From Glycomyces arizonensis DSM 44726 (GTDB lineage: Bacteria; Actinomycetota; Actinomycetes; Mycobacteriales; Micromonosporaceae), in NCBI RefSeq assembly GCF_000482705.1, contig NZ_AXWO01000008.1, positions 124,001 through 188,000 of the forward strand: a DNA stretch of 64,000 nucleotides. Direction: 5' to 3'. A program made the translations under genes and the position numbers. Below are positions 13,734 to 28,375 of this stretch, piece by piece (position 1 is the first letter of the stretch; each line of letters opens with the position of its first letter). The notes beneath the pieces are model-generated. The model saw only the letters and a list, made by a program, of their open reading frames with translations. It ran no database searches and was not told the DNA's origin.

Positions 13734-13839
13734 CGGTCCTCGCTCTCGGGTAGGCTGCGCGTCCCACAGCAGGGCGCGGCGGCGCGTCCGGCGACGGGTG
13801 CCCTCGCGCGCCGCGGCCCAAACCCGGGCGGCGCGGCGC

Positions 13840-14676: not shown

Positions 14677-14702
14677 GGCCGCCAGTGTGCCATCCTGGGC
14701 GC

Positions 14703-15428
14703 ATGCGTGGTGCCACGGCTCGCTCGAGACGACCGGCGCGGGGCGACCTCGCGCTCTACGACGAGCACGCCGACCAGTGGTGGGATCCGCGCGGGCCGTT
14801 CGTGATGCTGCACTGGCTCGCCGCGGCCCGGGGGCGGCTCGTGCCTCCGGCCGTCCGGCCGGGATCGGTCCTGGTGGACCTCGGCTGCGGGGCCGGGCTG
14901 CTCGCCCCGCACATCGCGGGCAAGGGCTACCGCCATATCGGCGTGGACCGCTCGCTGCCGTCGCTGCGCCTGGCGGCCGAGCACGGCGTCGACGGTGTGC
15001 TCGCCGACGTCCTCGCCGTGCCGATGGAGGACGGCTCGGCCGACGTGGTCGTGGCGGGCGAGATCCTCGAGCACGTCCCCGACCTGCGGGGCGCGGTGGC
15101 GGAGGCGTGCCGCCTGCTCCGCCCGGGCGGCGCCCTGGTGATCGACACGCTCGCGGACACCGTGCTGTGCCGGTTGATCGCCATCGGCCTGGCGGAGGGC
15201 GTGCTGCATCTGGCGCCCAAGGGCGTCCACGACCCGGCGCTGCTGGTGGACCGGGCGGTGCTGGTGGAGGAGTGCGACCGGCACGGCGTGGCTCTGGCGC
15301 TGCGGGGTGTGCGGCCGTCGATGGCCGACCTGGCGGCCTGGTCGGTGCGGCGCAGGCCCACCGTCCGCATGGTGCCCGCCCCGACCACGTCGGTGCTGTT
15401 CCAGGGCTACGGGCGCAAGCGGGCCTGA
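14703..15428 (+). CDS. SAM-dependent methyltransferase (UbiG/UbiE-like)
   Basis: A 241-residue class I methyltransferase. VLVDLGCGAGLLAPHIA is motif I for S-adenosylmethionine, GVDRSL is the following acidic strand, and GEILEHVPDL plus LLRPGGALVIDT are motifs II and III. The order resembles 3-demethylubiquinol methyltransferases, which O-methylate catechol-type lipids. ATG at 14703 is chosen; an in-frame GTG lies at 14685 but would bring the start to 8 bp from the divergent UbiA gene. Neither has a clear ribosome-binding site. It probably methylates the PKS-derived phenol; this assignment rests on context. Confidence 0.82.
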   Translation: MRGATARSRRPARGDLALYDEHADQWWDPRGPFVMLHWLAAARGRLVPPAVRPGSVLVDLGCGAGLLAPHIAGKGYRHIGVDRSLPSLRLAAEHGVDGVLADVLAVPMEDGSADVVVAGEILEHVPDLRGAVAEACRLLRPGGALVIDTLADTVLCRLIAIGLAEGVLHLAPKGVHDPALLVDRAVLVEECDRHGVALALRGVRPSMADLAAWSVRRRPTVRMVPAPTTSVLFQGYGRKRA

Positions 15429-15520
15429 GCGGTGCCGTATATGAGCATTGCCCTGAACGGGCCGCCGACGGCGGTTAGCGTGAGGTCGTTGAGGCATCGC
15501 AGACTCGAAGGGGAACCGCC

Positions 15521-15925
15521 ATGACACTCGCCGAACAAATGCTCGACACCTATCCGGCCGATCTGGGCGGCGTCGACCGCCGGAAGCTGGCCGCGTGCAT
15601 CACCGAGTGCTACGCCTGCGCGCAGGCGTGCACGGCGTGCGCCGACGCGTGCCTGAGCGAGGACGACGTCGCCTCGCTGACCAAGTGCATCCGCGCCGAC
15701 CTCGACTGCGCGGACATCTGCTTCGCCACCGGGCAGATGCTCTCGCGCCACACCGGATACGACGCCAACCTCACCCGCGCGATGCTCGAGGCGTGTGCGA
15801 TGGCGTGCAAGTCGTGCGGCGACATCTGCGCCGAGCACGACCACATGACGCACTGCGCGAAGTGCGCCATGGAGTGCCGCAACTGCGAGCGCGCCTGCCG
15901 CGAGCTGCTCGACAGCCTCGGCTGA
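15521..15925 (+). CDS. Cytosolic copper-storage protein, four-helix bundle (Csp3-like, DUF326)
   Basis: A 134-residue protein with 18 Cys residues spaced CxxC, CxxxC and CxxxxxxC along four predicted helices, plus a His-rich turn (AEHDHMTHC). This is the pattern of Csp copper-storage proteins, whose bundle core binds many Cu(I) ions through thiolates. There is no signal peptide, so it belongs to the cytosolic Csp3-like type. AAGGGGA precedes ATG 15521. It stands alone between the methyltransferase and the convergent MFS gene and is closed by a strong hairpin. No copper regulator is adjacent. Confidence 0.87.
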   Translation: MTLAEQMLDTYPADLGGVDRRKLAACITECYACAQACTACADACLSEDDVASLTKCIRADLDCADICFATGQMLSRHTGYDANLTRAMLEACAMACKSCGDICAEHDHMTHCAKCAMECRNCERACRELLDSLG

Positions 15926-15940
15926 CGGGGGTGCCGGGCC

Positions 15941-15973
15941 GCGGGCCGCCGGGAACGTCGCCCGGCGGCCCGC
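15941..15973. terminator. Bidirectional hairpin terminator
   Basis: GCGGGCCGCCGGG (15941-15953) and its exact complement CCCGGCGGCCCGC (15961-15973) form a 13-bp stem with a 7-base loop. It sits between the convergent copper-storage and MFS genes. Confidence 0.85.
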
Positions 15974-15994
15974 TTCGGTGTGCACCGTGCCTTC

Positions 15995-17215
15995 TCAGCC
16001 GCGACGCGGGACGGCCTCCTCGCGGGCCGGTGCGGCGTCGCGGGACGCGCGCCAGAGGAAGTGACCCGCGACGAGGACGAGCCCGGCCGCGGGCGCCCAG
16101 AACACGGCCCCGGTCGCGGGCCACGCGAGGGACGGCGCCGTGGCCGCCGCGATGCCCAGCCAGGTGCCCGCCGACTCGGCGCCGCCGCGGACGGCCCCGG
16201 CGACCCCGTAGGCGGCCACGCCGGAGAGACGGCCCTTGACCTCGGCGACCTCGGCGTCGTAGGCGGGCCCGAAGACCAGTTCGGCGAGCGTGAAGACCGC
16301 CATCGCCGCGTAGGCGACCGCCAGCGGGGCGTGCCCGGTGAAGCCGAAGAGGACCACCGAGAGCGACACCGCCGCGTGGGCGCCGGGGAGCACGGTCAGC
16401 GCGGCGAGGCGCGGGCGGGCGCGGCGCCAGCGTTCGAGCCAGGCGGTCAGCGGCGTCTGGAGGACGATCACCATCGCGGAGTTGAGGACGAACAGGTACG
16501 AGACGGCCTCGGTCCCGACCGTGTCGGCGGTGAACGTCGGGAGCACGTTGAACACCTGGGCGTAGGCGATCCAGGTGATCGCGGTGAAGCCCAGGAAGAC
16601 GGCGAACGGCAGCGGCCCGCCTCGGGCGGGTTCGTCGGTGCCGCCCCCGGCGGGGGCCTCGTCGACGGGCGGCACGAGCCTGAGCGCCGCCGCGGCGGCC
16701 CCGTACAGGAGGACGCCGGTCCACATGAGCAGCTGGGGGGACTCGGCGGCGATGTATCCCCCGGCGGCGATGCCCGCGGCCGATCCGGCGTTGACGGCCA
16801 GGTTGAGCTTCGAGAAGGCCCACAGCCGCTGCTCGGGCGTGTAGGCGACGATCACGAGCGCCTTGAGCGCGGCCGTGGCGGAGGAGAACGACAGGCCGAG
16901 CAGGGAGGCGAGCAGCGCCCAGACCGCGAGGCGGTCGCCCGGGTAGAGCGCCATCGCGCACACCGTGGCGGTGGCCGTGAGGTAGGCGAGGACGACCGAC
17001 CGCTTGAGGCCCAGGCGGTCGAGGAACCTGGCCGCGACCATGCCTCCGGCGCGTCCGAAGAGAAGGCACAGCGCCACGACGGTCGCGGCCGCGGTGCCGG
17101 AGAGGCCGCGGGCGTCGATCAGCCACAGCGCCAGGAAGGGCACGAGGAGGAAGAAGGCGGCGGCGCTGCATCCACGCACGGCGAGGAAGGCGAGTTCGGC
17201 TCGTTTGGTCGACAC
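15995..17215 (-). CDS. Major facilitator superfamily transporter, last gene of the chorismatase operon
   Basis: A 406-residue, twelve-helix MFS protein. The inter-helix loop after TM2 (AARFLDRLGLKRS) is the family's motif A region, and a long hydrophilic linker rich in Pro, Ala and Gly divides the two halves at about residue 190. GTG at 17215 follows a GAGGCGGGGG stretch. It is the last gene of the operon that begins with the chorismatase. By analogy with bacilysin and other ATP-grasp peptide clusters it probably exports the product, though drug-efflux or uptake roles are possible. Confidence 0.82.
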   Translation of the reverse strand: MSTKRAELAFLAVRGCSAAAFFLLVPFLALWLIDARGLSGTAAATVVALCLLFGRAGGMVAARFLDRLGLKRSVVLAYLTATATVCAMALYPGDRLAVWALLASLLGLSFSSATAALKALVIVAYTPEQRLWAFSKLNLAVNAGSAAGIAAGGYIAAESPQLLMWTGVLLYGAAAAALRLVPPVDEAPAGGGTDEPARGGPLPFAVFLGFTAITWIAYAQVFNVLPTFTADTVGTEAVSYLFVLNSAMVIVLQTPLTAWLERWRRARPRLAALTVLPGAHAAVSLSVVLFGFTGHAPLAVAYAAMAVFTLAELVFGPAYDAEVAEVKGRLSGVAAYGVAGAVRGGAESAGTWLGIAAATAPSLAWPATGAVFWAPAAGLVLVAGHFLWRASRDAAPAREEAVPRRG

Positions 17216-17257
17216 TCAGGCCCCCGCCTCGGCGCCGTGCCGGGAGGCGTTGCTCAT
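17216..17257 (-). other. Possible 13-codon ORF between ATP-grasp and MFS genes
   Basis: ATG at 17257 overlaps the stop of the upstream ATP-grasp gene as ATGA, and reading continues for 13 codons (MSNASRHGAEAGA) to a TGA that directly abuts the MFS GTG start. The exact junctions at both ends are unusual. There is no strong ribosome-binding site. It could be a coupling mini-cistron, a tiny peptide or chance. Confidence 0.3.
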
Positions 17258-18444
17258 TCCAGGTCCACCCGCACCTGGTCGAGCGCGTGCGCGGCGTTGT
17301 CGAGGGCCTCTTGCGGGTCGCGTCCGATGGCGACGACGCCGAGGGGCCGGTCCATCGAGTGCCGCGGTCGGCGCAGCCGGCGGCCCGCTTCGAGCTCGGA
17401 CTCGACGAAGTTCACCCCGGGCATGTGCCTGGCGAGGTCGAGGCCCGCGACGCGGGCGACGCGCCCCTCGCCGAAGGCCCGGTACTGCGTCGTGGCCCAA
17501 TAGGACGGCCTGGGTTCGGGCGCGGGGTCATCGCCGGTCGCGGTCGCCACGCTCAGCGAGATGGGGTCGAGTCCGCAGCTCAGCTGGACGAGCTTGGCGA
17601 TGTGGTCGCCGCCCGCCCGGGTGTGCGTCTCGATCACGCGGGGCCCCTTGGGCGTCAGCTTGATCTCGGTGTGGGTGACGCCGAGGCGCACGCCGATCAG
17701 GTCGAGGAAGTCCGCGGTGAAGGCGCCGAGCTCTTCGGCCTCGTCCGGGTTCAGGCGGCCGGGGAACAGGTGGCCCGATTCGACCACGGTGCCGGGGAAG
17801 AGGAACTTCTCGGTGACGCCGAGGATCCGGTGCTCCCCGGCGGCGCTGAGGGCCTCGACGGAGTATTCGGGGCCGTCGAGGTGCTCCTCGGCCAGCAGCG
17901 GGAAGGGCAGGTCCGCGGTGTCGTCGGCGGCGGTGAGGGTCCGCACGCCCGCCGATCCGGCGCCGTCGCGGGGCTTGGCGACGACGGTGCCGCAGGCGGC
18001 GATCATGTCGTCGACGTCGGCGGGGCCGTGCGCGATCCGGTGGGCGACGGCGAACCGGTCGTCGTTGGCCAGCAGCGTGCGCATCGTTCCCTTGTCGATG
18101 GTGGAGTGGACGACGCCGTCGGGGTTGCCGGGCAGGCCGAGGCGCCGCGCGACCTCGTCGGCCAGCAGCAGCGTCGCCTCGCTGTGGGTGAGGACGCCCG
18201 CCGTGCGCTCGCGCAGTCCCGCCTCGGACAGGGCGGCGATCACGCCGTCGGCCTCGGGTTCGCCCGCGATCACCAGGGCGCTGGTCTCGCTCGCGTGGGC
18301 GGGGGCCTCGCCGGGGTAGGCCGCGACGACCTCGAAGCCGCGGGCGCGGATGCGGTCGATGATGTGGGGCTTGGGGTTGCAGGCGAGGACGAACCGCGTC
18401 TCGCCGCCGGTGACAGTGCCGGTGACGGTGCCGGTGCCGCTCAT
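17254..18444 (-). CDS. ATP-grasp carboxylate-amine ligase, second of two
   Basis: A 396-residue ATP-grasp enzyme. After a low-complexity Gly-Thr-Val start (codon repeats near the ATG), an N-terminal pre-ATP-grasp domain runs to about residue 110. The ATP-binding lysine appears in VVAKPRDGAGSAGV and the Mg-binding acidic motif in HTEIKLTPKGPRVIETHTRAGGDH. The family forms amide or peptide bonds through acyl-phosphates. ATG at 18444 overlaps the stop of the first ATP-grasp gene. Two such ligases plus an aminotransferase suggest stepwise coupling of an unusual amino acid to other amines. The substrates are unknown. Confidence 0.85.
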   Translation of the reverse strand: MSGTGTVTGTVTGGETRFVLACNPKPHIIDRIRARGFEVVAAYPGEAPAHASETSALVIAGEPEADGVIAALSEAGLRERTAGVLTHSEATLLLADEVARRLGLPGNPDGVVHSTIDKGTMRTLLANDDRFAVAHRIAHGPADVDDMIAACGTVVAKPRDGAGSAGVRTLTAADDTADLPFPLLAEEHLDGPEYSVEALSAAGEHRILGVTEKFLFPGTVVESGHLFPGRLNPDEAEELGAFTADFLDLIGVRLGVTHTEIKLTPKGPRVIETHTRAGGDHIAKLVQLSCGLDPISLSVATATGDDPAPEPRPSYWATTQYRAFGEGRVARVAGLDLARHMPGVNFVESELEAGRRLRRPRHSMDRPLGVVAIGRDPQEALDNAAHALDQVRVDLE

Positions 18445-19652
18445 TCGCCGCCGACCTCGACTCGGTAGGCGCCGTAGATCTCCTTGGTGAGGCGCTCGAC
18501 CTCGGCCTGGCCGTCGGCGCGCGCGAACACGAGCATGGCGGCGCTCGCGGAGTTCTGGCGGTCGGGGACCGCGTCGCCGACCTTGTAGTTCACGGCGACG
18601 TCGACGACGCCCTCGATCCGGCGCAGTTCGGCCTCGTCGGTCATAGCGGTGATCCGCCCGGCGGGCACGGTGAGGTACCAGTGCGCGATGGTGCCCGGCG
18701 CGTCGTCGGGGGTCTCCTCGACGGCGGGGGCGCGGCCCAGCGAGGTGTCGAGGCAGGCCTGCCAGACGTCGACGCCGGTCTGGAGCGCCAACGCCCGGGG
18801 GATGCCGCCTCCGGCGGGGCGGCAGGCGATCTCGCTGGCGAGCAGGCCGCCTGCGGTGGCGAAGAACTCCATGTGGGTCACGCCGGAGCGCAGCCCGGTG
18901 GCCTCGACGGCGCGGCGGTGCAGTTCGCGTATGCGCCGGGCCGTCTCATCGCCGTCGGGGAGGATCCGCGTGCCGAAGTGCTCGCCGTGGTCGAGGACCG
19001 GGACGAAGTACTCGGAGGCCTTGGCGAAGCGGACCTCGCCGTCGTCGACGATGCCGTCGCAGTGGTACTCGGTCTGGATGTCGACGAGGGACTCGACGAC
19101 GAGCGGGCATGTCAGGCCGCGGAAGGCGTCGGAGGCCGGGCTCTGGGCGAACGCGCGGACCTCCTCGGGGGTGTCGAAGCGGAAGACGTCGATCGAGCCG
19201 CCGCCGACGGCGCGCTTGACGATGACGGGCCAGCCGGTCGCCTCGGCGGCCCGCTCGATCTGGTCGATCCCGGCGGCCATGGCGAACGCGGCCTGCGGGA
19301 GTCCGGCCTCGCGCAGCCGCAGCTTCATGACGTACTTGTTGGTCAGGGCGTTGGCCTCGGCGAAGCCGATGCCGGGGATGCCGAAGCAGTCGCGCAGGAA
19401 CGCGGCCTGGGCCTGGCCCAGCTCGAACGGCATGAAGATCCGGTCGACGGGGCCCTGCCGCAGCAGCGCGAGGGCCTCGGCGCGCAGGCATTCGACGTCC
19501 TGGACGTCGCGGACCAGGCGGACGTCGACGCCGGGCCCGTACTGCTGGAGGTGGCCCGGTTCGGTGATGACCGTGAGCGAGTCCGCTTCGAGCGAGCGCA
19601 GGACGTGCTCGGGGAGGCGGTTCTTCTTGACGTGGATCAGCAGGATGTGCAT
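18441..19652 (-). CDS. ATP-grasp carboxylate-amine ligase, first of two
   Basis: A 403-residue ATP-grasp enzyme, only distantly similar to its neighbour. WPVIVKRAVGGGSIDVFRF supplies the nucleotide-binding Lys and Gly-rich loop; THMEFFATAGGLLASEIACRPAGGG holds the Mg ligands and the ATP-grasp signature. The C-terminal about 100 residues form the carboxylase-like lid. Domain order matches L-amino-acid ligases such as BacD. It starts one base after the dioxygenase stop and overlaps the second ligase by 4 bp. It probably joins the pathway's amino acid to a second amino acid, an inference. Confidence 0.86.
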   Translation of the reverse strand: MHILLIHVKKNRLPEHVLRSLEADSLTVITEPGHLQQYGPGVDVRLVRDVQDVECLRAEALALLRQGPVDRIFMPFELGQAQAAFLRDCFGIPGIGFAEANALTNKYVMKLRLREAGLPQAAFAMAAGIDQIERAAEATGWPVIVKRAVGGGSIDVFRFDTPEEVRAFAQSPASDAFRGLTCPLVVESLVDIQTEYHCDGIVDDGEVRFAKASEYFVPVLDHGEHFGTRILPDGDETARRIRELHRRAVEATGLRSGVTHMEFFATAGGLLASEIACRPAGGGIPRALALQTGVDVWQACLDTSLGRAPAVEETPDDAPGTIAHWYLTVPAGRITAMTDEAELRRIEGVVDVAVNYKVGDAVPDRQNSASAAMLVFARADGQAEVERLTKEIYGAYRVEVGGE

Positions 19653-19653
19653 C

Positions 19654-20703
19654 TCAGGCTCCTCGGTTGCGCGGCGCGGCGTCGGCCTCGGTCTCCTCGC
19701 GCCACAGGCCGAGGGCGGTCTGGGCGGCGCGGTCGCTGTAGGAGAAGACGACGGCGCTGCCGTCGTCGACGTCGTGGGAGTAGGGGGCCCAGGAGGGGAT
19801 GACGACGACGTCGCGCGGCTTCCAGCCGATCGTCTGCCCGCCGACGGTCGTGGTGCCCGAGCCTTCGAGGGGGACGAGCACGGTGGCGTCGGTGGACCGG
19901 TACGTCCCGGCGCTGGGCCCTTCGGGGAGGATGCTGAGGAAGGCGCTCATGGTCGTCAGGATCGGCCCGCCGGTCGCGGGGTCGATGTACTCGGCCTCCC
20001 AGCCGCGCACGGGGTGCGGGTCGGTCTGGGCGGCGAACTGCTCGAGCCGCTTGAGCGTCTCGACGTAGGGGTAGGCGGTCAGGGGGTTGGCCTCGGGCCG
20101 CCGGTCGGTCGGGCGCAGACCGGCGGCCCACAGCCCGGCCCGCCCGTCGGGTTCGGACGGCTGGGAGGCGGCCGGGAGGTTCTCGAGGAACGAGGCGTCG
20201 TAGAAGGAGACGGTGGGGATGTCGAGCGCGTCGAGCCAGACGGTGTCCTCGGCGGCGTCGCCGTCGTTGCCGTGGTCGTGCCACGACCAGGGCGGGGTGA
20301 CCACGACGTCGCCGACGCCCATGGCGGTCTTGTCGCCGTTGACGGTGCTGTAGGAGCTCTCGCCTTCGAGGATGAGGCGCAGCGCGGACTGGGTGTGCCG
20401 GTGGGCGGGGGCGACCTCGCCGGGGCGCAGGAGCTGGAGTCCGGCGTAGAGGCTGCGGGTGATGGAGGAGGTGCCGGGCAGGGCGGGGTTCTCGAGGATG
20501 AGGACGCGCCGCTCGGCCTGCTCGACGCTGATGACCTCGCCCGCGAGCATGAGGCTTTCGCGCGCCTCGGCGTAGCGCCAGATGTGGGCGCCCGCCTGCC
20601 CGGCGGGCCGGGGCCGGACGAGGTCCCCGAAGCGGTCCCAGAGGGGGACGAGGCCGTCGCCGGCGATGGACTTCGAGTAGCGTTCGAGGCGGTCGTCGCT
20701 CAT
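19654..20703 (-). CDS. Gentisate 1,2-dioxygenase-like bicupin
   Basis: A 349-residue two-cupin protein. In the N-terminal cupin the metal ligands are in place: His101 and His103 (PAHRHTQSALR) and His142 (WSWHDHGN), with the same spacing as in known gentisate dioxygenases. The C-terminal cupin retains PSWAPYSHDV. The family opens gentisate between C1 and C2 to maleylpyruvate using Fe(II) and O2. ATG 20703 overlaps the stop of the FAD hydroxylase. No maleylpyruvate isomerase or fumarylpyruvate hydrolase follows, unlike catabolic gentisate operons. A related substrate such as a substituted hydroxybenzoate is also possible. Confidence 0.87.
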   Translation of the reverse strand: MSDDRLERYSKSIAGDGLVPLWDRFGDLVRPRPAGQAGAHIWRYAEARESLMLAGEVISVEQAERRVLILENPALPGTSSITRSLYAGLQLLRPGEVAPAHRHTQSALRLILEGESSYSTVNGDKTAMGVGDVVVTPPWSWHDHGNDGDAAEDTVWLDALDIPTVSFYDASFLENLPAASQPSEPDGRAGLWAAGLRPTDRRPEANPLTAYPYVETLKRLEQFAAQTDPHPVRGWEAEYIDPATGGPILTTMSAFLSILPEGPSAGTYRSTDATVLVPLEGSGTTTVGGQTIGWKPRDVVVIPSWAPYSHDVDDGSAVVFSYSDRAAQTALGLWREETEADAAPRNRGA

Positions 20704-21881
20704 GTGTTGCCTCCCAAGGGCGTGTAGAGCCAGTTCAGGTGTTCGAGCAGTCGGTCCTCGGTCAGGTCGAGGAGCATGGCGTCGCGGCGTCCGGCGGCCG
20801 TCCCGCCGGGGTGGTAGACCTCGGCGGCCATCCAGCGCGAGAGGCGCTGGACGCGCGCGGTCCGCTCCCGCCTCGCCGCGGCGTAGTCGCCGAGCGCGGT
20901 CTCGGGGTCGTCGTGGGCGGCGAGGCGGTCGGCGAGGACGGCGGCGTCCTCTATGGCCATGCAGGCGCCCTGGGCGGCGTACTGGAGCATGGGGTGGGCG
21001 GCGTCGCCGAGGAGTGCGATCCGGCCCTTCACCCATGTGTCGACCGGTTCGCGGTCGCGCAGCGTCCAGCGGCGCCAGCCGGTGCCCGCTTCGAGGAACG
21101 CCCGGGCGCGGTCGCCGACGCGGTCGAACAGGTGCCGCACCGGCTCGTCGTCGACCGCCTCGCCGCGCGCCTCGCCGGTGGAGCCGTCGTGGACGGTGAT
21201 GACGGCGTTGTAGACCTCGCGGTCCCTGAGCGGGTAGTGGACGAGGTGGCAGCCCGGTCCGGCCCACAGCACGGCTCCGTCGACGCGGCAGTGCTCGGGC
21301 ATCAGCTCGGACCGGATGAGGCAGCGGAACGTGGCGTGTCCCGAGGGGATCGGGTCGCCGTCGCCGACGAGGTCCCGGCGGAACCGGGAGTGGAGCCCGT
21401 CGGCGGCGATCAGGCACCGGCCGCGCCAGCCGCGGCCGTCGGCCGTCACCGCCTCGACGTGGTCGGCGTGCTCCTCCCAGGAGGTGACCTCGGCGGAGGG
21501 GACCAGCTCGATGAGGTCCGATTCCAGGCACGCCTCGTGGAGCGAGCGGAGCAGGTCGCCGCGGTGGATGACGCCGTATCCGGCGCCGAACCGGTCGAGG
21601 AAGCGGCCGTGCAGGTCGAGGCGGACGAGGCTTCCTCCCTCGACGGCGTCGCGGATCTCCAGGAACGCCACGGGGATCAGGCGCTCGCGCACCCGCTCCC
21701 CCGCGCCGAGCCGGTCGAGGACGGCGAGGGCGTTGGGGCCCAGCTGTATCCCGGCGCCGATTTCGAGGAAGTCGCGGTCGCGTTCGAGCACGACCGAGCG
21801 GATGCCCTTGCGGGCCATGCCGATGGCCGCGGCGAGGCCGCCGATGCCGCCGCCCGCCACGAGCACGGGTGAGATCGTCAC
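20700..21881 (-). CDS. FAD-dependent 3-hydroxybenzoate 6-hydroxylase-like monooxygenase
   Basis: A 393-residue group A flavoprotein hydroxylase. GGGIGG at residues 10-15 binds the ADP part of FAD, AADGLHSRFRR is the DG motif for FAD/NAD(P)H, and LLGDAAHPMLQYAAQGACMAIEDA is the GD motif. The QYxAQGA context resembles 3-hydroxybenzoate 6-hydroxylases, which make gentisate; salicylate hydroxylases are close relatives. GTG at 21881 overlaps the aminotransferase stop. Gene order (chorismatase before it, gentisate dioxygenase after it) supports 3-hydroxybenzoate as substrate. Confidence 0.85.
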   Translation of the reverse strand: MTISPVLVAGGGIGGLAAAIGMARKGIRSVVLERDRDFLEIGAGIQLGPNALAVLDRLGAGERVRERLIPVAFLEIRDAVEGGSLVRLDLHGRFLDRFGAGYGVIHRGDLLRSLHEACLESDLIELVPSAEVTSWEEHADHVEAVTADGRGWRGRCLIAADGLHSRFRRDLVGDGDPIPSGHATFRCLIRSELMPEHCRVDGAVLWAGPGCHLVHYPLRDREVYNAVITVHDGSTGEARGEAVDDEPVRHLFDRVGDRARAFLEAGTGWRRWTLRDREPVDTWVKGRIALLGDAAHPMLQYAAQGACMAIEDAAVLADRLAAHDDPETALGDYAAARRERTARVQRLSRWMAAEVYHPGGTAAGRRDAMLLDLTEDRLLEHLNWLYTPLGGNT

Positions 21882-23113
21882 GCCGCCACCCCCCGCTTGA
21901 GCAGGATCGGGGCGAGCCGTTCGAGCGCGCGCCGCGTCGTGGCGAGGTCGTGGACCATCGCGATCCGCACGTGCCCCTGTCCCGGCTGGAAGCCGTCGTA
22001 CGCCTCGGGGCCGAGGTAGCGGCCGGGCATGACGCGCAGTCCGGCGCGCTCCCAGCATTCGACGGCGGTCGCCTCGTCGTCGTCGACCATGGGCCACAGG
22101 AACATGCCCGCCTGCGGGGATCGGTGGCCGGGCAGGCCGCCGAGGATCTCGTCGGCGGCGTCGAAGAGCGCCCGGTAGGAGTCGCGGATCCGCTCGACGT
22201 GGTCCTCGTCGCGGAGCAGGTCGGCGGCGGCGGCCATGTTGGGGCAGCCCACGGTCCCGGCGGCGTAGGCGCGCAGGCCGATCAGGCCGCGCACGAGGCC
22301 GCGGTCCCCGGCGGCGAAGCCGACGCGCAGGCCGGGGGCCGAGGAGCGCTTCGACAGGGAGTTGATCGCCAGCACGTGCGAGTACGGGTCGCCGCCGCTC
22401 CCGGCCCGATCGCGGGCGAGGTCGGCGCAGACGCGGAGCACGCCGTACGGCGCCTCGGCCCGGTAGATCTCGCTGTAGCACTCGTCGACCGCGAGGATGA
22501 AGCCGTGGCGCCGGGCCAGGGCCACGGCTCGGGCGAGGTACCGCCGGTCGGCCACGGCGCCTTCGGGGTTGGAGGGCGCGCAGACGGTGAGCAGGGCGAC
22601 CTCGTCGCCGCGTCGCTCCACTTCGTCCAGGTCCGGCAGGTGGCCGGTGCGCTCGGTCGACGGCAGGAAGACCGGTTCGAGGCCGGTGAGGAGCGCGGCC
22701 GCGCGGTAGGGCGCGTAGTGCGGGGTGGGCATGAGCGCGAGGCGGCCGCGGTCGCGGGCGGCGAGCAGGCCGAGCTGGAAGAGGACTTCGCGGGCCCCCG
22801 AGCTCGGCATGACGGCTTCGGGCGCGATCGGCGGGTCGAGGCGGAACCGGCGGCCCAGCCAGTCCGCGGCCGCCGCGCGGAAGTCGGCGGTCCCCTCGTT
22901 GCGCGGGTAGGAGCCGAGGCTCGCCCCGTGCTCGGCGAGGCGCGCGGGCAGCCAGTCCGGCGGCGGGACGCGGGGTTCGCCGATGGTCAGGTCGATCGTC
23001 TCGCCCGGCGGCGGTTCGATGCCCTCAAGGAGGGCGGCCACGCGCGGGAAGGGGTGGGCGCCCAGCTGGGCGATCGCCGGGTTCACCAGGTCGGCGGCGT
23101 TCGTTCCGGTCAC
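21878..23113 (-). CDS. PLP-dependent class I/II aminotransferase, DapC-like
   Basis: A 411-residue fold-type I aminotransferase. LTIGEPRVPPPDW near residue 45, NPEG at 182-185, Asp210 (pyridine N contact) and Lys255 (INSLSKRS, Schiff base) are all present; the Arg for the substrate carboxylate is in VRIAM. The IGEPRxPxP start is typical of the DapC-type branch that works on C7 keto-dicarboxylate derivatives, which would suit a maleylpyruvate-like ring-opening product. GTG 23113 overlaps the chorismatase stop. The amino donor and true acceptor are unknown. Confidence 0.87.
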   Translation of the reverse strand: MTGTNAADLVNPAIAQLGAHPFPRVAALLEGIEPPPGETIDLTIGEPRVPPPDWLPARLAEHGASLGSYPRNEGTADFRAAAADWLGRRFRLDPPIAPEAVMPSSGAREVLFQLGLLAARDRGRLALMPTPHYAPYRAAALLTGLEPVFLPSTERTGHLPDLDEVERRGDEVALLTVCAPSNPEGAVADRRYLARAVALARRHGFILAVDECYSEIYRAEAPYGVLRVCADLARDRAGSGGDPYSHVLAINSLSKRSSAPGLRVGFAAGDRGLVRGLIGLRAYAAGTVGCPNMAAAADLLRDEDHVERIRDSYRALFDAADEILGGLPGHRSPQAGMFLWPMVDDDEATAVECWERAGLRVMPGRYLGPEAYDGFQPGQGHVRIAMVHDLATTRRALERLAPILLKRGVAA

Positions 23114-24201
23114 GGCCGCACCGCCTTTCCGCCCACGACGGCCTCGATCTCGACCAGGAGGTCGCTGCGGCAGATGTCGACGTTGAAGACCGCCAGGGAC
23201 GCTTCGGTGCCGAAGACCTCTTCGCAGAAGGCCCGGACGTACGGCACGTGGTGGGCGTGGCGGACGTAGGCCTTGACGGTGGTGGCGTCCTTGAGGTCCT
23301 TGGCGCCCCCGTAGCAGCTGTCGATGAGCTCGGCGATGTTCTCGGCGGTGGTGGCGCACTGCTTCTCGATGTCGCCGTCGTGCACCGTCTCGTGGCCGAG
23401 GATGCTGGCGGTGCCGGAGATGTAGAGCGTGCGCTCGGCCCCCGGCCGGGTGGTGATCGCCGAGGCCCGCGCGAAGCTGGGGCTGCGGGGGCCGTACTGC
23501 TCGGGGTATTCGTATGCGGGCGTCTGCCTGCGGTTCTCGATGTGGCGCACCTCGATGTCCTTGACGGCCAGGAGGAAGAACGCGATGCCGCTGCCGGTCG
23601 AGCCGATGCCCGTGGCGGCCGGCATGGAGCGGCAGAACTCGGGGTTGGCGCTGAAGGCGTCGGCGCGGCCTTTGCAGAAGTCCCGGTAGACCTCGAGGTC
23701 GTCGGCGTTCACGGCGTTGATGGTCTCGATGAAGTTCCACACGCGCAGCAGGCGGCGGTACCCGCGCTCTTCGAGCAGGTCGAAGACGGCGCGGTAGCGC
23801 CGCTCGACGGACGGGGCGTACACCGTCCGGTGCTCGATGGCGGTGGCGCAGAGGATCGCCTCGCCGGTGCAGGCGTAGAGGACGTCGTCCCGGTCGCCGG
23901 TCTCGGGCGGCGAGGTGCCCCGCCAGGATTCGCGGTATCCGGACTCGCCGTGGCGGGCCATGGGGATCGTCATCGCGAGGTGCCCTCCCCCGGCCGGGCC
24001 TTCGGCGATCGCGAGCGAGGCGGGAGCGCTGCGGTAGGTGATCTCGGCGAGGGTGAACCCGTCGGCGGCCCGTGGGAGCGGCTCGGGCTGACAGTCCCCT
24101 ATGCAGGGAGCAAGGGTGGAGCTGATCAAACTGTAAACCTCATTGAAAGTCAAATCGGATGGTGAAAACGGCATGGCTGAATGCAGCGGCCGTCGCGCCA
24201 T
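23110..24201 (-). CDS. Chorismatase, probably 3-hydroxybenzoate-forming type
   Basis: A 363-residue protein of the FkbO/Hyg5/XanB2 chorismatase family, which removes pyruvate from chorismate. Family blocks are visible: RLLRVWNFIETINA (152-165), CKGRADAF, MPAATGIGSTG (193-203), YISGTASILGHETVHDG (260-276) and ICRSDLLVEIE (343-353). Cys344 lies seven residues before Glu351; as I recall, Hyg5-type enzymes that form 3-hydroxybenzoate carry Cys at this place and FkbO-type enzymes do not. ATG 24201 or 24174 may be the start; neither has a clear ribosome-binding site. It is the first gene of a seven-gene operon and defines the pathway's entry from the shikimate branch point. Confidence 0.86.
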   Translation of the reverse strand: MARRPLHSAMPFSPSDLTFNEVYSLISSTLAPCIGDCQPEPLPRAADGFTLAEITYRSAPASLAIAEGPAGGGHLAMTIPMARHGESGYRESWRGTSPPETGDRDDVLYACTGEAILCATAIEHRTVYAPSVERRYRAVFDLLEERGYRRLLRVWNFIETINAVNADDLEVYRDFCKGRADAFSANPEFCRSMPAATGIGSTGSGIAFFLLAVKDIEVRHIENRRQTPAYEYPEQYGPRSPSFARASAITTRPGAERTLYISGTASILGHETVHDGDIEKQCATTAENIAELIDSCYGGAKDLKDATTVKAYVRHAHHVPYVRAFCEEVFGTEASLAVFNVDICRSDLLVEIEAVVGGKAVRP

Positions 24202-24245
24202 CCGAGTGGCGAACCGCTTTTCATTGAACGATCAAATAATGGTGA
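24140..24245. repeat. Two imperfect 25-bp direct repeats with palindromic cores
   Basis: Copy 1 (24140-24165) and copy 2 (24221-24245) share TCATTGAA...TCAAAT...ATGGTGA. Each core is an inverted repeat: TTGA-AAG-TCAA at 24143-24153 and TTGA-ACGA-TCAA at 24224-24235. Copy 1 lies within the first codons of the chorismatase reading frame, copy 2 upstream of it. They may be a regulator's operators or mark a mis-set start codon. Confidence 0.5.
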
Positions 24246-24611
24246 GGAAGGGTTGAAGAAAAGCACCTGAGACCGACTTCGTTGTCCGATCGTGATTCCG
24301 TCGAGACTCTAGCATGCGGCTTCCATCAGCGCGGACCACGAATGCCGATCATGGCAAGATCATTATTGTTTCACCAGGTAGATATCATTGAGAATGACAA
24401 AAATGCGATCTGCGTCTCAAGTTACACGAGCCCCTTCGTTCACAAGTGCATCCCGATTCACAATCGACTGCCGATGCACCGCAATGCCGCCTCCCAACAA
24501 ATGATCTTCCTTTGGCGAATGCCGCCGAGTTAAGTGCATCACAATGGGTGGAATTGATCTTGCATCTCCTGCTTCCCTGTCTCCGGAGAAACCCTTCTTC
24601 GGGAGCAGACC
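24202..24611. other. AT-rich divergent control region of the chorismatase/desaturase locus
   Basis: About 410 bp with no convincing gene and clearly lower GC than its surroundings, especially 24340-24430. It holds one of the 25-bp repeats (24221-24245) and a perfect palindrome TCATT-GAG-AATGA at 24385-24397. Short open frames here lack actinomycete codon bias. Promoters for both divergent operons must lie here; no clear -35/-10 pair could be chosen. No regulator gene is adjacent. Confidence 0.5.
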
Positions 24612-25586
24612 ATGCGAAAAACGAATTCCTCTTCCGCCACAGTGAGCACTCGCGGATATAGGCGCGGCTATTCGACTCCGGCCGCGCTCCGCGACGACCT
24701 CAAGGCCGCGCACCGGACGAGCCCGTGGCGCAGCGCGCTCGCCGCCGCGGCCGACCAGGCCGCGGTCATCGCGGCATGCGTCCTCGGCGGCCTGCTGCTG
24801 ATCGGGCGCCCCGCCGTCGGCGCCCCGGTCGCGCTGGTCGCGGCGGTCCTCGTCGGGCGGCAGCTCCGCGCGCTCGAATGCCTCGTCCACGAAGGCTCGC
24901 ACTTCAACTGGAGCAGGCGGCACCGGCGGCTGAACGACCTGCTCACGATCGCGATCGCGGCGTTCCCGACCGGTGCGCAGCTCTCGGGGTACCGCGAGAG
25001 CCACCTGCGGCACCACGGCGCCTTCGGCACCGACGACGACCCCGACCGGCAGCGCTACCGCGAACTCGACCTCGAATCGATCGACCGCACGAGGGCGGGC
25101 GCCTTCGCGGGGGCGATGCTCTCCCGGCTGCCCGCCTACCAGCGCACGTGGTGGCGCGACAGCCTCCAGGCCTCACCGGCGATCGCGCTGCTGCCCCTGC
25201 TGTGGTGCGCGGCCTTCGTGGCCGCCCCGGCGTGGGCCGCGGGCGGGGCACCGGTCGCGATCGCGGCCGCCGCCGTATGGGCCCTCGGTTTCGCGGTCGC
25301 GCTGCCGGTCCTGCGGTTCGTCGCCGAGTCCAGCGAGCACGTCTACACCGGATCCGACACGGTCTTCGACGCGACGATCAGCAACCTCGGTCTCCTGCAA
25401 CGCGCGCTGATCCATCCGCACAGCGACGGTTACCATACGGTGCATCACATGTGGCCGGGAGTGCCGCATCATCGACTCGCGTGGCTCCACCGGAGGCTCA
25501 TGGCGGGCGACCCCGAGTACGCCGCCCGGCTGCGGTGGCGCTCGGGAGTGTTCACATCGCCCGCCCGGGGGATGCGCCTGACATGA
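24612..25586 (+). CDS. Membrane di-iron desaturase/hydroxylase-fold enzyme
   Basis: A 324-residue membrane protein of the fatty-acid desaturase/hydroxylase superfamily. The three histidine boxes are intact: HEGSH (93-97), HLRHH (131-135) and HTVHH (275-279), with hydrophobic segments at about 45-85, 110-125 and 190-235. Such enzymes use O2 at a di-iron site to desaturate or hydroxylate lipids or small molecules. ATG 24612 has GGGAG upstream. It faces the chorismatase operon and leads a rightward set with the B3/4 and LysE genes, so it may tailor the product; independent lipid desaturation is the alternative. Confidence 0.83.
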   Translation: MRKTNSSSATVSTRGYRRGYSTPAALRDDLKAAHRTSPWRSALAAAADQAAVIAACVLGGLLLIGRPAVGAPVALVAAVLVGRQLRALECLVHEGSHFNWSRRHRRLNDLLTIAIAAFPTGAQLSGYRESHLRHHGAFGTDDDPDRQRYRELDLESIDRTRAGAFAGAMLSRLPAYQRTWWRDSLQASPAIALLPLLWCAAFVAAPAWAAGGAPVAIAAAAVWALGFAVALPVLRFVAESSEHVYTGSDTVFDATISNLGLLQRALIHPHSDGYHTVHHMWPGVPHHRLAWLHRRLMAGDPEYAARLRWRSGVFTSPARGMRLT

Positions 25587-25623
25587 GCGGCGGACCGACG
25601 AAGAAGCTGGAAAGGACCTGCGG

Positions 25624-26355
25624 ATGAACCGCGAATTCACCGTCTCCGATGGTGTCACCGAGGCGTTTCCGCACTTGCGGATCCACCTGATCGCCGTCGA
25701 GGGGCTGCGCAACGGCGAGCCGTGGCCGAAGGCGGCCGCGGCCCTGGACGAACTCGAGTCCGATGCCGCGGCGGGCGAGTGGACCGCCCTCGCCGACGAC
25801 GATCCGCGGATCGCGTCGTGGCACGCGGCCTACCGCTCCTTCGGCACCAACCCGAAGCGGACGCGCCCCAGCGCCGAGGCCCTGCAGCGCCGCCTGGCCA
25901 AGAGCGGGCGGCTGCCCCGCATCTCCCCCGCCGTGGACGCCTACAACCTGGCCTCGGTGCGGTTCGGCGTGCCCGCCGGTGCCTTCGACCTGTCGGCGCT
26001 GGGCGAGCGGGTCGACATCAGGCACGCCGCCGAGAGCGACGGCTTCACGCCGCTGGGCGAACCGGAGGTCCGGGAGGCCCCGGCGGCGGGCGAGGTCGTC
26101 TACGCCCAGGGCGATGAGGTCCTGACCAGGCACTGGAACCACCGCGACGCGGACGCCACGAAGGTGACCCCCGCGACGGTGTCGGCGGTGTTCGTGCTCG
26201 ACTCGGTGGCCGAGGAGGCGCACGCGGCCGTGGACGCGGCCGCCGACGGCCTCGCGCAGCTGCTGTCGGAGGGATCGACCGTCACCGCCCACCGGGTGAT
26301 CGACGCGGCCTCCCGCTCGGTCCGCCTCGACGGCGAGGGAGTCTCCGGGCGGTGA
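25624..26355 (+). CDS. Stand-alone B3/4 domain protein (PheRS beta-like editing domain)
   Basis: A 243-residue free-standing B3/4 domain, the module that in phenylalanyl-tRNA synthetase beta hydrolyses wrongly charged tRNA. Typical features are SFGTNPKRTRPSAEAL, LPRISPAVDAYNLASVRFGVPAGAFDL and VVYAQGDEVLTRHWNHRDA. No anticodon or synthetase parts are present. AAAGGA precedes ATG 25624. It is coupled to a LysE-type exporter. Freestanding versions are generally unassigned; trans-editing of tRNA charged with a non-protein amino acid is an attractive inference given the neighbouring amino-acid-like biosynthesis operon. Confidence 0.82.
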   Translation: MNREFTVSDGVTEAFPHLRIHLIAVEGLRNGEPWPKAAAALDELESDAAAGEWTALADDDPRIASWHAAYRSFGTNPKRTRPSAEALQRRLAKSGRLPRISPAVDAYNLASVRFGVPAGAFDLSALGERVDIRHAAESDGFTPLGEPEVREAPAAGEVVYAQGDEVLTRHWNHRDADATKVTPATVSAVFVLDSVAEEAHAAVDAAADGLAQLLSEGSTVTAHRVIDAASRSVRLDGEGVSGR

Positions 26356-26966
26356 CGGCCGCCTACCTCACCGGCCTCGCGCTCGGGCTGGCGCTGATCG
26401 TGCCGATCGGCGCGCAGAACGTGTTCGTGTTCAACCAGGGCGTCACGCTGGGCATGCCGCGAGCGCTGTGGGCCGTGCTCGGCGCGGGCTGCTGCGACAC
26501 GCTGCTGATCGTGCTCGGCGCGACGGGGACCTCGGCCCTGCTGCACTCGGTGCCGGGACTGCGCCCGACGATGCTCATCGCGGGCTCGCTCTTCCTGGCC
26601 TACCTGGGGATCAGATCGCTGCGCGCGAAACCCGCCGACATCGACGACGAGACCGGCGTCCGGTCGCGCGGCCGGGTGCTGCGCCGGACCGCGGCCGTGT
26701 CGCTGCTCAACCCGCACGCCATCCTGGACACGGTCGGGGTGCTCGGGGCGGCCATCACCGCGCAGGCGGTGGGCACGCGCGCGGTCTTCGCGGCCGGGGC
26801 GGTGTCCGCCTCCTGGCTGTGGTTCCTGCTGCTGGCGGGGGCGGCGGTGGGCATGCGGCGCTTCCTCACCAAGGAGCGCCGCGTCTGGTTCGACCGGGCC
26901 TCCGGCGCGATACTGCTGGTCTTCTCGGCGTGGCTCGCCGTCGAATTCGTGCTCGCCTTGGGGTGA
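26352..26966 (+). CDS. LysE/ArgO-family amino acid exporter
   Basis: A 204-residue membrane protein with six predicted helices. LALIVPIGAQNVFVFNQG is the N-terminal signature of LysE/ArgO exporters and SLLNPHAILDT is the second conserved Asn-Pro block. The family exports basic or other amino acids using the proton gradient. GTG 26352 overlaps the B3/4 stop, so the two proteins are co-expressed. Export of a toxic amino acid would fit the B3/4 partner; lysine or arginine export is the default family assignment. Two hairpins follow. Confidence 0.86.
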   Translation: MTAAYLTGLALGLALIVPIGAQNVFVFNQGVTLGMPRALWAVLGAGCCDTLLIVLGATGTSALLHSVPGLRPTMLIAGSLFLAYLGIRSLRAKPADIDDETGVRSRGRVLRRTAAVSLLNPHAILDTVGVLGAAITAQAVGTRAVFAAGAVSASWLWFLLLAGAAVGMRRFLTKERRVWFDRASGAILLVFSAWLAVEFVLALG

Positions 26967-26985
26967 GCGTTCGGGAACGGGCGCT

Positions 26986-27037
26986 GCCCCGGCCAGAGCG
27001 GCCGGGGCGCTGGGGCCGCGCGCCCGTGGGCGCGCGG
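26986..27037. terminator. Double hairpin terminator between convergent genes
   Basis: GCCCCGGCC (26986-26994) pairs with GGCCGGGGC (27000-27008), loop AGAGC. A second stem, CCGCGCGCCC (27016-27025) with GGGCGCGCGG (27028-27037), follows. Together they separate the LysE gene from the convergent DUF4383 gene. Confidence 0.75.
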
Positions 27038-27046
27038 CGCGGTCGG

Positions 27047-27502
27047 TCAGGTCCTGGCTCTGGCGCGTCCTCCGCTGAGCACCAGGCCGAGGATGATCAT
27101 GCCGACGCCCAGGACCAGGTGCAGCCAGTCGTCGGCGTCGTTGAGCGGCACGAAGTTCGCGTCCGAGTGGCGGTCGACGATCAGGCCGTAGATCCACAGC
27201 AGCAGGTAGATCACGCCACCGCCGATGAGGAACGCCCGTGCTCCGGCCGCCGAGCGGGCCATGGCGAGTCCGACGATCCCGTACAGCAGGTGGACGATGT
27301 TGTGCAGGACCGAGACGGCGAAGACGCCCAGCAGCATGGCGGACGACTCGTGGCCGGCGAACTTCATGGTGTCGTAGTCCGTGGTGATCCCCGGGATGAA
27401 CCCGAGGATGCCCACGAGCAGGAACACCAGCGAGATGATCACCGTGACCAGCTGTATCGGCGTTCGCGTCGCGGACTGGGCCGTGGGTTTGACGTCAGAC
27501 AT
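27047..27502 (-). CDS. DUF4383 membrane protein
   Basis: A 151-residue protein with four predicted transmembrane helices, matching the DUF4383 family common in actinomycetes. Conserved elements are GFIPGITTDYDTMKFAG, the HNIVHLLYGIVGL helix and a final DDWLHLVLGVGMIILG helix. ATG 27502 is chosen because GGGAGCGAGGA precedes it. It is a single gene between a convergent terminator and the CitE gene's 3' end. The function is unknown; no partner genes suggest one. Confidence 0.8.
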   Translation of the reverse strand: MSDVKPTAQSATRTPIQLVTVIISLVFLLVGILGFIPGITTDYDTMKFAGHESSAMLLGVFAVSVLHNIVHLLYGIVGLAMARSAAGARAFLIGGGVIYLLLWIYGLIVDRHSDANFVPLNDADDWLHLVLGVGMIILGLVLSGGRARART

Positions 27503-27580
27503 TCCTCGCTCCCTTCTGCGAGATGCGGTCATCCCCGGTGTACCCGGCCGTATCGGTTTCATACCGGCCGTTCGGCGGGC

Positions 27581-28375
27581 TCAGCCGAGGATGCGCCTCG
27601 CGCGCCCGAGCATGGCGGGGTCGACCATCTCGCCGTCGGGCAGGGTGGCGACGCCGCCGCCTCTTCCAGGACCGTGCTCCAGGGCGTCGACGACGGCCCT
27701 GGCCCAGGCCCGCTCCTCCTCGGAGGGGGCGAAGACCGCCTCGATGACGGGCAGCTGCGCGGGGTGGACCGCGACGCGTCCGCGCAGGCCCAGGGCCCTG
27801 CCGCGCTCGGTGTCGGCGCGCAGGCCGTCGAGGTCGCGGATGGCGGGGTAGACCGAGAGCATCGGCGCGTCGAGCCCGGCGGCGCGGGCGGCGATGAGCA
27901 GCCGGACGCGCGCGTGGTCGAGCACGAGGGGGTCGGTGCTGCCGAGGTCGCTCGCGAGGTCGGCCTCCCCGAGGGCCACCTCGCGCACCGCGGGGTGGGC
28001 GGCGACGGCCGCGGCGGCTTCGAGGCCGCGGGCGGACTCGATGAGCGCGGTGAGCGGCAGCCCGCCCGCGAGCCGCGCGATCGCGTCGAGCTCGCGGGGG
28101 TCCTCGACCTTCGGGACGCGGAGGCCGACGGCGGCGCCCGTGCCGCGGACGGCCTCGATCTCGTGCGCGGCCCCGGCGTTCACCCGCACTTGGAGCGCGA
28201 TGCCCGGCGGCGGGTCGGCGAGGTAGGCGGTGACGTTCGCGAGCGCCTCGGCCTTCGCGTCGGCGGCGACGGCGTCCTCCAGGTCGAGGATCACGACGTC
28301 GGCGCCCGAGGCCGCGGCCTTGCCGAAGCGGTCCGGGCGGTCGCCCGGCACGTACAGCGCGCTGACCGGGCTCAT
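27581..28375 (-). CDS. HpcH/HpaI aldolase / CitE-like CoA-ester lyase
   Basis: A 264-residue TIM-barrel lyase of the CitE family. LYVPGDRPDRFGKA, DVVILDLEDAVAADAK (Mg ligand Asp), RVNAG, LTALIESARGL (Mg ligand Glu) and DLASDLG are the expected blocks. The family cleaves citramalyl-, malyl- or related CoA thioesters into acyl-CoA and an oxoacid. ATG 28375 overlaps the stop of the CaiB-type CoA-transferase. It is the last gene of the LacI/ABC/ribokinase operon and probably cleaves the CoA ester formed by that transferase. Substrate unknown. Confidence 0.85.
   Translation of the reverse strand: MSPVSALYVPGDRPDRFGKAAASGADVVILDLEDAVAADAKAEALANVTAYLADPPPGIALQVRVNAGAAHEIEAVRGTGAAVGLRVPKVEDPRELDAIARLAGGLPLTALIESARGLEAAAAVAAHPAVREVALGEADLASDLGSTDPLVLDHARVRLLIAARAAGLDAPMLSVYPAIRDLDGLRADTERGRALGLRGRVAVHPAQLPVIEAVFAPSEEERAWARAVVDALEHGPGRGGGVATLPDGEMVDPAMLGRARRILG

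Follow-up and report, generated by a model that had tools for sequence, protein, structure and literature searches.

What might a bacterium build with genes that appear to make an aromatic acid from chorismate, open its ring and ligate amino acids? We asked this of ten genes at positions 15995–26966 of a 64,000-nucleotide stretch of the Glycomyces arizonensis DSM 44726 genome (contig NZ_AXWO01000008.1, positions 124,001 to 188,000; hereafter the window). An open reading frame list, family scans and trimmed translations place them in two divergent sets: seven genes on the minus strand, from a chorismatase to a major facilitator superfamily (MFS) exporter, and a plus-strand trio encoding a desaturase-fold enzyme, a B3/4 protein and a LysE-type exporter. 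We estimate a probability of a little under 0.6 that the block builds a small ATP-grasp-ligated peptide from a ring-opened C7 amino acid, an arginine-type partner being the weaker part of this proposal. The core chemistry, as predicted from the enzyme families, is probable.

Conservation and Distribution of the Ten-Gene Block

All ten genes recur, in identical order and with the same divergence, in two other Glycomyces genomes, at 65–83% protein identity. When 57 of the 58 called window genes (the one starting at base 1 was left out) were compared with the 20-kilobase (kb) loci of these two genomes, 10 of the 57 matched, and these were the ten block genes only; the 11 flanking genes of one relative locus (L018) had no match in the other (L020). 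Since all ten genes are collinear in two genomes with different flanks, we take the block to be a real unit. Between the window and L018, each of the ten genes varies most at its third codon positions, by a factor of 1.5–3.6 over the first or second positions. The layout is compact, with 4-base-pair (bp) overlaps at five junctions (18441, 20700, 21878, 23110 and 26352) and gaps of 1 bp (19653), 37 bp (25587–25623) and 38 bp (17216–17253). An earlier note, made from the sequence alone, had described overlapping or nearly abutting leftward genes and a divergent trio; the open reading frame list and family scans confirmed this placement, and the scans agreed with its ten functional labels at the family level.

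We then examined how widely the block occurs. The chorismatase family was searched in 151 genomes, namely the source genome and 150 relatives, with 22 Glycomyces genomes among them. It was found above the cut-off at four places, in the source genome, the two other Glycomyces and one other genus of the family. The latter copy (L019) shares 38% identity, and none of the other nine block genes lies nearby. Nine further matches were weak and partial, one of them within Glycomyces (G010). Co-occurrence of the genes in related genomes had been set as a test beforehand, and it proved rare yet whole and collinear in each case: the full-length chorismatase, and with it the entire block, is present in 3 of the 22 Glycomyces genomes. 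In a sample of 396 genomes of the phylum, ten genomes besides the source gave chorismatase matches, all weak and partial. A sample of 397 genomes of the order gave matches in 12, including the source genome and G008, both of which carry the block; no other block genes lay in the 20 kb around the 11 full-length chorismatase places in nine of the ten remaining genomes, and three weak or partial places were inspected over about 3.4 kb only. A pattern scan of genome contigs confirmed 2 of 98 pattern matches, probably because the two patterns used were narrow.

Chorismatases are also found on plasmids. In four of the 11 plasmid records, which were opened, no relative of the bicupin, flavin adenine dinucleotide (FAD) enzyme, aminotransferase or desaturase was detected at E 1e-8. 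On the plasmid of Streptomyces sp. Mg1 (L090, 4521–16034), the chorismatase lies by genes for an AMP-binding protein, a tyrosine aminomutase, NikS and two ATP-grasp proteins (32–37% identical to ligase 1 of the block), and an enediyne chromoprotein gene is near this group. In summary, the ten-gene block is a real, compact and rare biosynthetic unit.

Predicted Steps from Chorismate to Maleylpyruvate

The pathway would start with the chorismatase (23110–24201, minus strand), whose conserved part begins near 24135 and whose exact start is uncertain, probably within 24135–24201. It belongs to the FkbO/Hyg5 family and reached 339.5 bits against TIGR04444, above the curated cut-off of 325. Its match to PDB 5ag3, which we take to be Hyg5 in agreement with the Glu-334 numbering, scored 250.6 bits, compared to 176.8 bits for FkbO (4bps). 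Chorismatases of the CH-Hyg5 class, which form 3-hydroxybenzoate, are described as having Gly164, Gly231 and Cys318 (Nat-hyg5) together with the catalytic Glu334 (Hyg5) (PMC7170507). All four residues are present in the block protein, within the motifs PAATG, SGTAS, VDIC and LLVEIE aligned to 5ag3, and likewise in the chorismatases of the other two block genomes. FkbO has PAATG in common with the block protein but carries SATAG and TDIA at other motifs, so that an FkbO-type chorismatase was ruled out by both class residues and scores. A motif pattern for the class residues picked up just 5 of 15 chorismatases. The predicted formation of 3-hydroxybenzoate from chorismate by this Hyg5-type enzyme is thus well supported at the sequence level.

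The next step would be hydroxylation to gentisate by the FAD monooxygenase (20700–21881, minus strand, 393 residues), which resembles 3-hydroxybenzoate 6-hydroxylase. It scored 411 bits against NF006021, with the next-best family at 202 bits among the matches listed (best 25 of 63). The best PDB match was 4bjy (189 bits), which we take to be the Rhodococcus 3-hydroxybenzoate 6-hydroxylase; Y102, H212 and Q300 align to its Tyr105, His213 and Gln301, presumably the active site.

The bicupin (19654–20703, minus strand, 349 residues) would then open the gentisate ring to give maleylpyruvate, a C7 2-keto dicarboxylate. It contains two Cupin_2 stretches, scored 384 bits against TIGR02272 and is closest to PDB 2d40, a putative gentisate dioxygenase (278 bits); the TIGR02272 scores of the bicupin in three block genomes were 386–398 bits. 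H101, H103 and H142 are invariant in the three block genomes and form the HxH...H arrangement, the metal-ligand motif of gentisate 1,2-dioxygenase bicupins. Hence, the conversion of chorismate via 3-hydroxybenzoate and gentisate to maleylpyruvate by these three putative enzymes is well supported at the sequence level.

A Probable Biosynthetic Rather than Catabolic Role

The families of the FAD enzyme and the bicupin are usually catabolic, which raises the possibility that the block serves ordinary gentisate catabolism, with an unlinked maleylpyruvate isomerase and fumarylpyruvate hydrolase completing the route. Candidate proteins do exist in the source genome, where FAA-hydrolase proteins occur at four places and MDMPI_N proteins at nine. 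None of the four is on the contig of the block, however, the nearest MDMPI_N protein is about 30 kb from it, and the closest pair of the two kinds is about 36 kb apart; within the block, no maleylpyruvate isomerase or fumarylpyruvate hydrolase family was found, glutathione-type isomerases not having been searched. The chorismatase would, moreover, let the cell make the substrate itself out of chorismate, and the aminotransferase, two ligases and an exporter are packed tightly into the same operon. In the five genomes tested with TIGR02272, each of the three block genomes has one gentisate dioxygenase, which is the block copy, and two sister genomes (G010 and G018) have none. With no second gentisate dioxygenase in the genome and no linked downstream genes, the catabolic explanation is disfavoured and appears very improbable, and the non-catabolic view taken in the earlier note is upheld within the families searched. 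A biosynthetic role is therefore supported.

Proposed Amination, Ligation and Export

We next considered what could become of maleylpyruvate. The pyridoxal phosphate (PLP)-dependent aminotransferase (21878–23113, minus strand, 411 residues) is similar to DapC, a succinyldiaminopimelate transaminase, with 314 bits against TIGR03538 and 199 bits against PDB 3jtx, and its residue K255 is invariant in the three block genomes. A housekeeping DapC is located elsewhere in all five tested genomes (513–529 bits); as the block enzyme scored 157 bits on TIGR03539 versus 513 for the housekeeping enzyme, the two are not the same. An enduracididine route of the GntB/GntC type was rejected for this aminotransferase, since the DapC family matched far better than GntC (314 versus 128 bits) and PDB 8fft, which we take to be GntC, gave only 33 bits. 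Like the substrate of DapC, maleylpyruvate is a C7 2-keto dicarboxylate; for this reason, we propose by analogy that the enzyme probably aminates maleylpyruvate at C2, to give 2-amino-4-oxohept-5-enedioate with an electrophilic enone.

The two ATP-grasp ligases, one or both, would couple this C7 amino acid to a second amino acid. Ligase 1 (17254–18444, minus strand, 396 residues), of the L-amino acid ligase (LAL) type, scored 50.9 bits against PF18603 LAL_C2 and 45.8 bits against PF13535, and matched the L-amino acid ligases PDB 3vot and 30vh at 50 and 49 bits; its predicted structure had a mean predicted local distance difference test score of 52 and was not used. Ligase 2 (18441–19652, minus strand, 403 residues) scored 42.6 bits against LAL_C2, so both exceed the gathering score of 29.4. 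The nearest solved relative of ligase 2 is PDB 4wd3 (182 bits, next PDB match 40 bits), which we take to be RizA. RizA forms arginyl dipeptides and has been mutated at T81, K83, S84, S156, A158 and D376 (PMC9321006), where our reading of the alignment gives F, L, G, G, S and A in ligase 2, the last beside a gap. The changes of T81 to F and of A158 to S raised Arg-Ser formation in RizA (PMC9321006), and the F and S of ligase 2 at these positions are suggestive at most. Judging from these matches, the two ligases probably join the C7 amino acid to another amino acid. The product would be exported by the MFS protein (15995–17215, minus strand, 406 residues; PF07690 67.3 bits, cut-off 33.4), which is 72–79% identical to its copies in the two other blocks.

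The Divergent Trio as a Portable Module

The desaturase-fold enzyme (24612–25586, plus strand, 324 residues) has a membrane di-iron desaturase/hydroxylase fold (PF00487, 111 bits) and is a distant relative of the arginine gamma-hydroxylase GntB, its best NCBIfam match (NF041365, 72.6 bits). At E 1e-6, the four other desaturase homologues scanned out of eight likewise matched GntB (45.9–78.7 bits) and no further NCBIfam family. For the two other desaturases of the source genome, the fragments scanned matched DesB and DesA best, and gave 25.6 bits and no match, respectively, for GntB. The B3/4 protein (25624–26355, plus strand, 243 residues) stands alone and exceeded the PF03483 B3_4 gathering score of 29.3 with 91.7 bits; it is a candidate CtdA-like tRNA deacylase, matching PDB 9mkl at 79.6 bits and 9f7e, CtdA, at 77.2 bits over residues 9–212. 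A distant relative of CtdA, 35% identical, also deacylates canavanyl-tRNA (PMC10018355). The third protein, a LysE/ArgO-type amino-acid exporter (26352–26966, plus strand, 204 residues), scored 114.7 bits against PF01810.

The desaturase-fold gene is present in 7 of the 151 genomes, the source included, and only in the source genome among 394 in a class-wide sample at E 1e-25. In G010 and G018, the trio is found together without the operon, and neither genome has a full-length chorismatase or a TIGR02272 match; no ligase was seen among the ten neighbouring proteins scanned around these trios. Since these genomes keep the trio in the absence of the chorismate route, the substrate of the trio ought to be a common metabolite. 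In phylogenetic trees, the G018 trio groups with the block trio of G007 (iqtree bootstrap 82, FastTree 0.964; other iqtree nodes 59–63), and the operon may have been lost in G018 while the trio stayed. In G149, from a different family of the order, the desaturase and B3/4 genes are accompanied by a YqcI/YcgG gene, an MFS gene and two other ATP-grasp genes (L044, 9102–16114), perhaps a second, different peptide cluster with the same module. The YqcI/YcgG protein matched GntA weakly (49.5 bits, cut-off 145); enzymes of this kind hydroxylate guanidine N-H (PMC12866846). In G060, the desaturase gene adjoins a LysE gene. Among plasmids, nine records hold desaturase relatives, including two Streptomyces copies at 49.5% identity that cover most of the query. 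The annotated copy has as neighbours two TauD dioxygenases, a PLP enzyme and a LysA-like decarboxylase, in a nonribosomal peptide synthetase (NRPS) cluster (L046, 1495–14334). In an unannotated plasmid region (L048), searched for block genes only, the desaturase was the only relative. The three divergent genes form a portable module of their own, which the earlier note could not have seen from the window alone.

The GntB-, CtdA- and ArgO-like matches, together with the proximity of ligase 2 to 4wd3 and the YqcI/YcgG gene of the G149 cluster, are weak hints toward an arginine-type partner, which is plausible. The desaturase-fold enzyme might thus act on a common amino acid, with arginine the likeliest, hydroxylating (or desaturating) it to provide the peptide partner, the B3/4 protein might strip this modified amino acid when mischarged on tRNA, and the LysE protein might export its surplus. 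Such a peptide would be an antimetabolite of the Trojan-horse-like kind, comparable to rhizocticin or argolaphos but made without phosphonate chemistry.

Weighing the Alternatives

Several observations weigh against a ring-opened C7 amino acid joined to an arginine-type residue. The pathway is a prediction from gene sequences. The curated cut-offs were missed by the FAD enzyme (459 bits), the bicupin (442 bits; the Corynebacterium glutamicum bicupin likewise matches TIGR02272 below it), the aminotransferase (474.6 bits), the desaturase-fold enzyme for GntB (380 bits) and the LysE protein for both TIGR00948 (129 bits, cut-off 214) and the ArgO family (92 bits, cut-off 298). The 4wd3 match of ligase 2 is distant, its residues differ from those of RizA at all six engineered positions, and arginine specificity is not established by the alignment. 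ATP-grasp ligase relatives (25–37%) adjoin the chorismatase on the Streptomyces sp. Mg1 plasmid, where there is no dioxygenase of the block type, so that this pairing is not specific. As for the trio, the NRPS cluster around the annotated plasmid copy of the desaturase is of unclear chemistry, B3/4 relatives at 47–56% are common on Streptomyces plasmids (best 12 of 176 records), and one at 47% adjoins a drug/metabolite transporter (DMT) gene, not an arginine gene. The trio could be a functionally separate neighbour.

If so, operon and trio might be two unrelated units that are neighbours by chance. The trios of G010 and G018, which lack the operon, and the grouping of the G018 trio with that of G007, with the operon possibly lost and the trio kept, are consistent with such independence. 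Against this, the ten genes stand together in three genomes with mutually non-matching flanks, and two of the trio genes recur next to a pair of ATP-grasp genes and an MFS gene in G149, a member of another family of the order; we consider chance neighbourhood unlikely. Rather unlikely, too, is a version in which the same route leads to the C7 amino acid and the trio acts on, or protects against, this amino acid or the peptide, arginine being uninvolved. The trio adjoins the operon in all three block genomes, desaturase-fold enzymes have varied substrates, and all arginine-family matches missed their curated cut-offs, all of which would fit. However, G010 and G018 could not make the C7 compound by this route and still hold the trio. 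Another variant concerns the building block itself: the amination product might close on itself, by aza-Michael addition or condensation, to a 4-oxopiperidine or 4-pyridone dicarboxylate that is then ligated. On chemical reasoning, the amine and the enone are positioned for a six-membered ring, and the family scans of the block showed no isomerase. Against closure, the block has no obvious cyclase or dehydrogenase family, and the open form otherwise fits equally; we consider ring closure unlikely. We retain the ligated peptide of a ring-opened C7 amino acid as the preferred reading. Its fullest form is more tentative and possible rather than probable: a gentisate-type dioxygenase recruited for building, a C7 enone amino acid linked to a hydroxylated arginine-type residue, and dedicated tRNA-editing self-protection within the block.

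Other Features of the Window

The two sets are separated by a divergent intergenic region (24202–24611), in which a three-way DNA alignment shows short conserved stretches ahead of the desaturase-fold gene. The stretch at about 24520–24611, just 5′ of this gene, is well conserved in DNA among the three block genomes; by count, an ATG within it is in frame with the gene in L018 and not in the window. No Rfam family reached its gathering score within 12000–31000, and a riboswitch near the B3/4 gene was rejected on this basis. A tRNA-Arg called by ARAGORN at 22615–22696, antisense inside the aminotransferase gene, was not called in L018 or L020 and is probably spurious.

To the left of the block, at 11401–15428, are genes for a type III polyketide synthase-like protein, an acyl-CoA dehydrogenase, a UbiA prenyltransferase and a methyltransferase. 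They lack counterparts at the two relative loci and are perhaps a separate cluster. At 28372–31574, a CoA-transferase III gene overlaps the gene for a 672-residue protein with a C-terminal FGE-sulfatase domain.

Comparison with Known Systems

The earlier note knew of no described cluster with this gene set, and none was found among the open-licence papers listed by searches aimed at it, judged by titles and the beginnings of abstracts, so that we provisionally regard the block as undescribed. Its likeness to bacilysin, which the note had raised, holds only as an analogy: bacilysin also involves a shikimate-derived amino acid, an aminotransferase, an ATP-grasp ligase and an MFS pump. Its pathway begins with prephenate and leads to an epoxyketone, however, and beyond the aminotransferase, ligase and pump no family is in common; rhizocticin and argolaphos look nearer. 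In rhizocticin biosynthesis, LAL-type ATP-grasp ligases couple a toxic nonproteinogenic amino acid to arginine, and ligase 2 of the block is nearest to 4wd3. Unlike rhizocticin, no phosphonate gene family (Pfam) is present among the ten block proteins, and the unusual amino acid would derive from the opening of a chorismate-derived ring. The argolaphos alp cluster makes a hydroxyarginine peptide and includes the ATP-grasp protein AlpC and the YqcI/YcgG protein AlpD, the paper leaving open which ligase makes which bond (PMC8976061). The G149 cluster, with its ATP-grasp and YqcI/YcgG genes, is comparable. In contrast to argolaphos, with its phosphonate partner, the block has no YqcI/YcgG gene, and the desaturase-fold enzyme would hydroxylate.

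The guanitoxin route (PMC10367076) contains GntB, whose family gave the desaturase-fold enzyme its nearest match, but the GntB cut-off is far off, and the block aminotransferase is DapC-like, not GntC-like. CtdA, like the block protein, is a stand-alone B3/4 protein; its gene lies by canavanine degradation genes (PMC10018355), whereas the block B3/4 gene lies in a biosynthetic block, where a role in self-protection may be proposed. A tRNA-editing protein as producer self-protection is a directly testable idea. If the reading is true, the portable desaturase/B3/4/LysE module would help in searching for peptides that incorporate amino-acid antimetabolites, the opening of an aromatic ring followed by amination would be a new route to nonproteinogenic amino acids, and cluster-finding rules could mistake such loci for aromatic catabolism. 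A chemical precedent is man-made: hyg5, 3hb6h, a gentisate dioxygenase and a hydrolase gave maleate from glucose in engineered Escherichia coli (PMC5658364). That pathway takes the steps from chorismate to maleylpyruvate that are predicted here but was assembled by hand and ends in hydrolysis to maleate. Three steps combined artificially in E. coli seem to occur naturally in the Glycomyces block.

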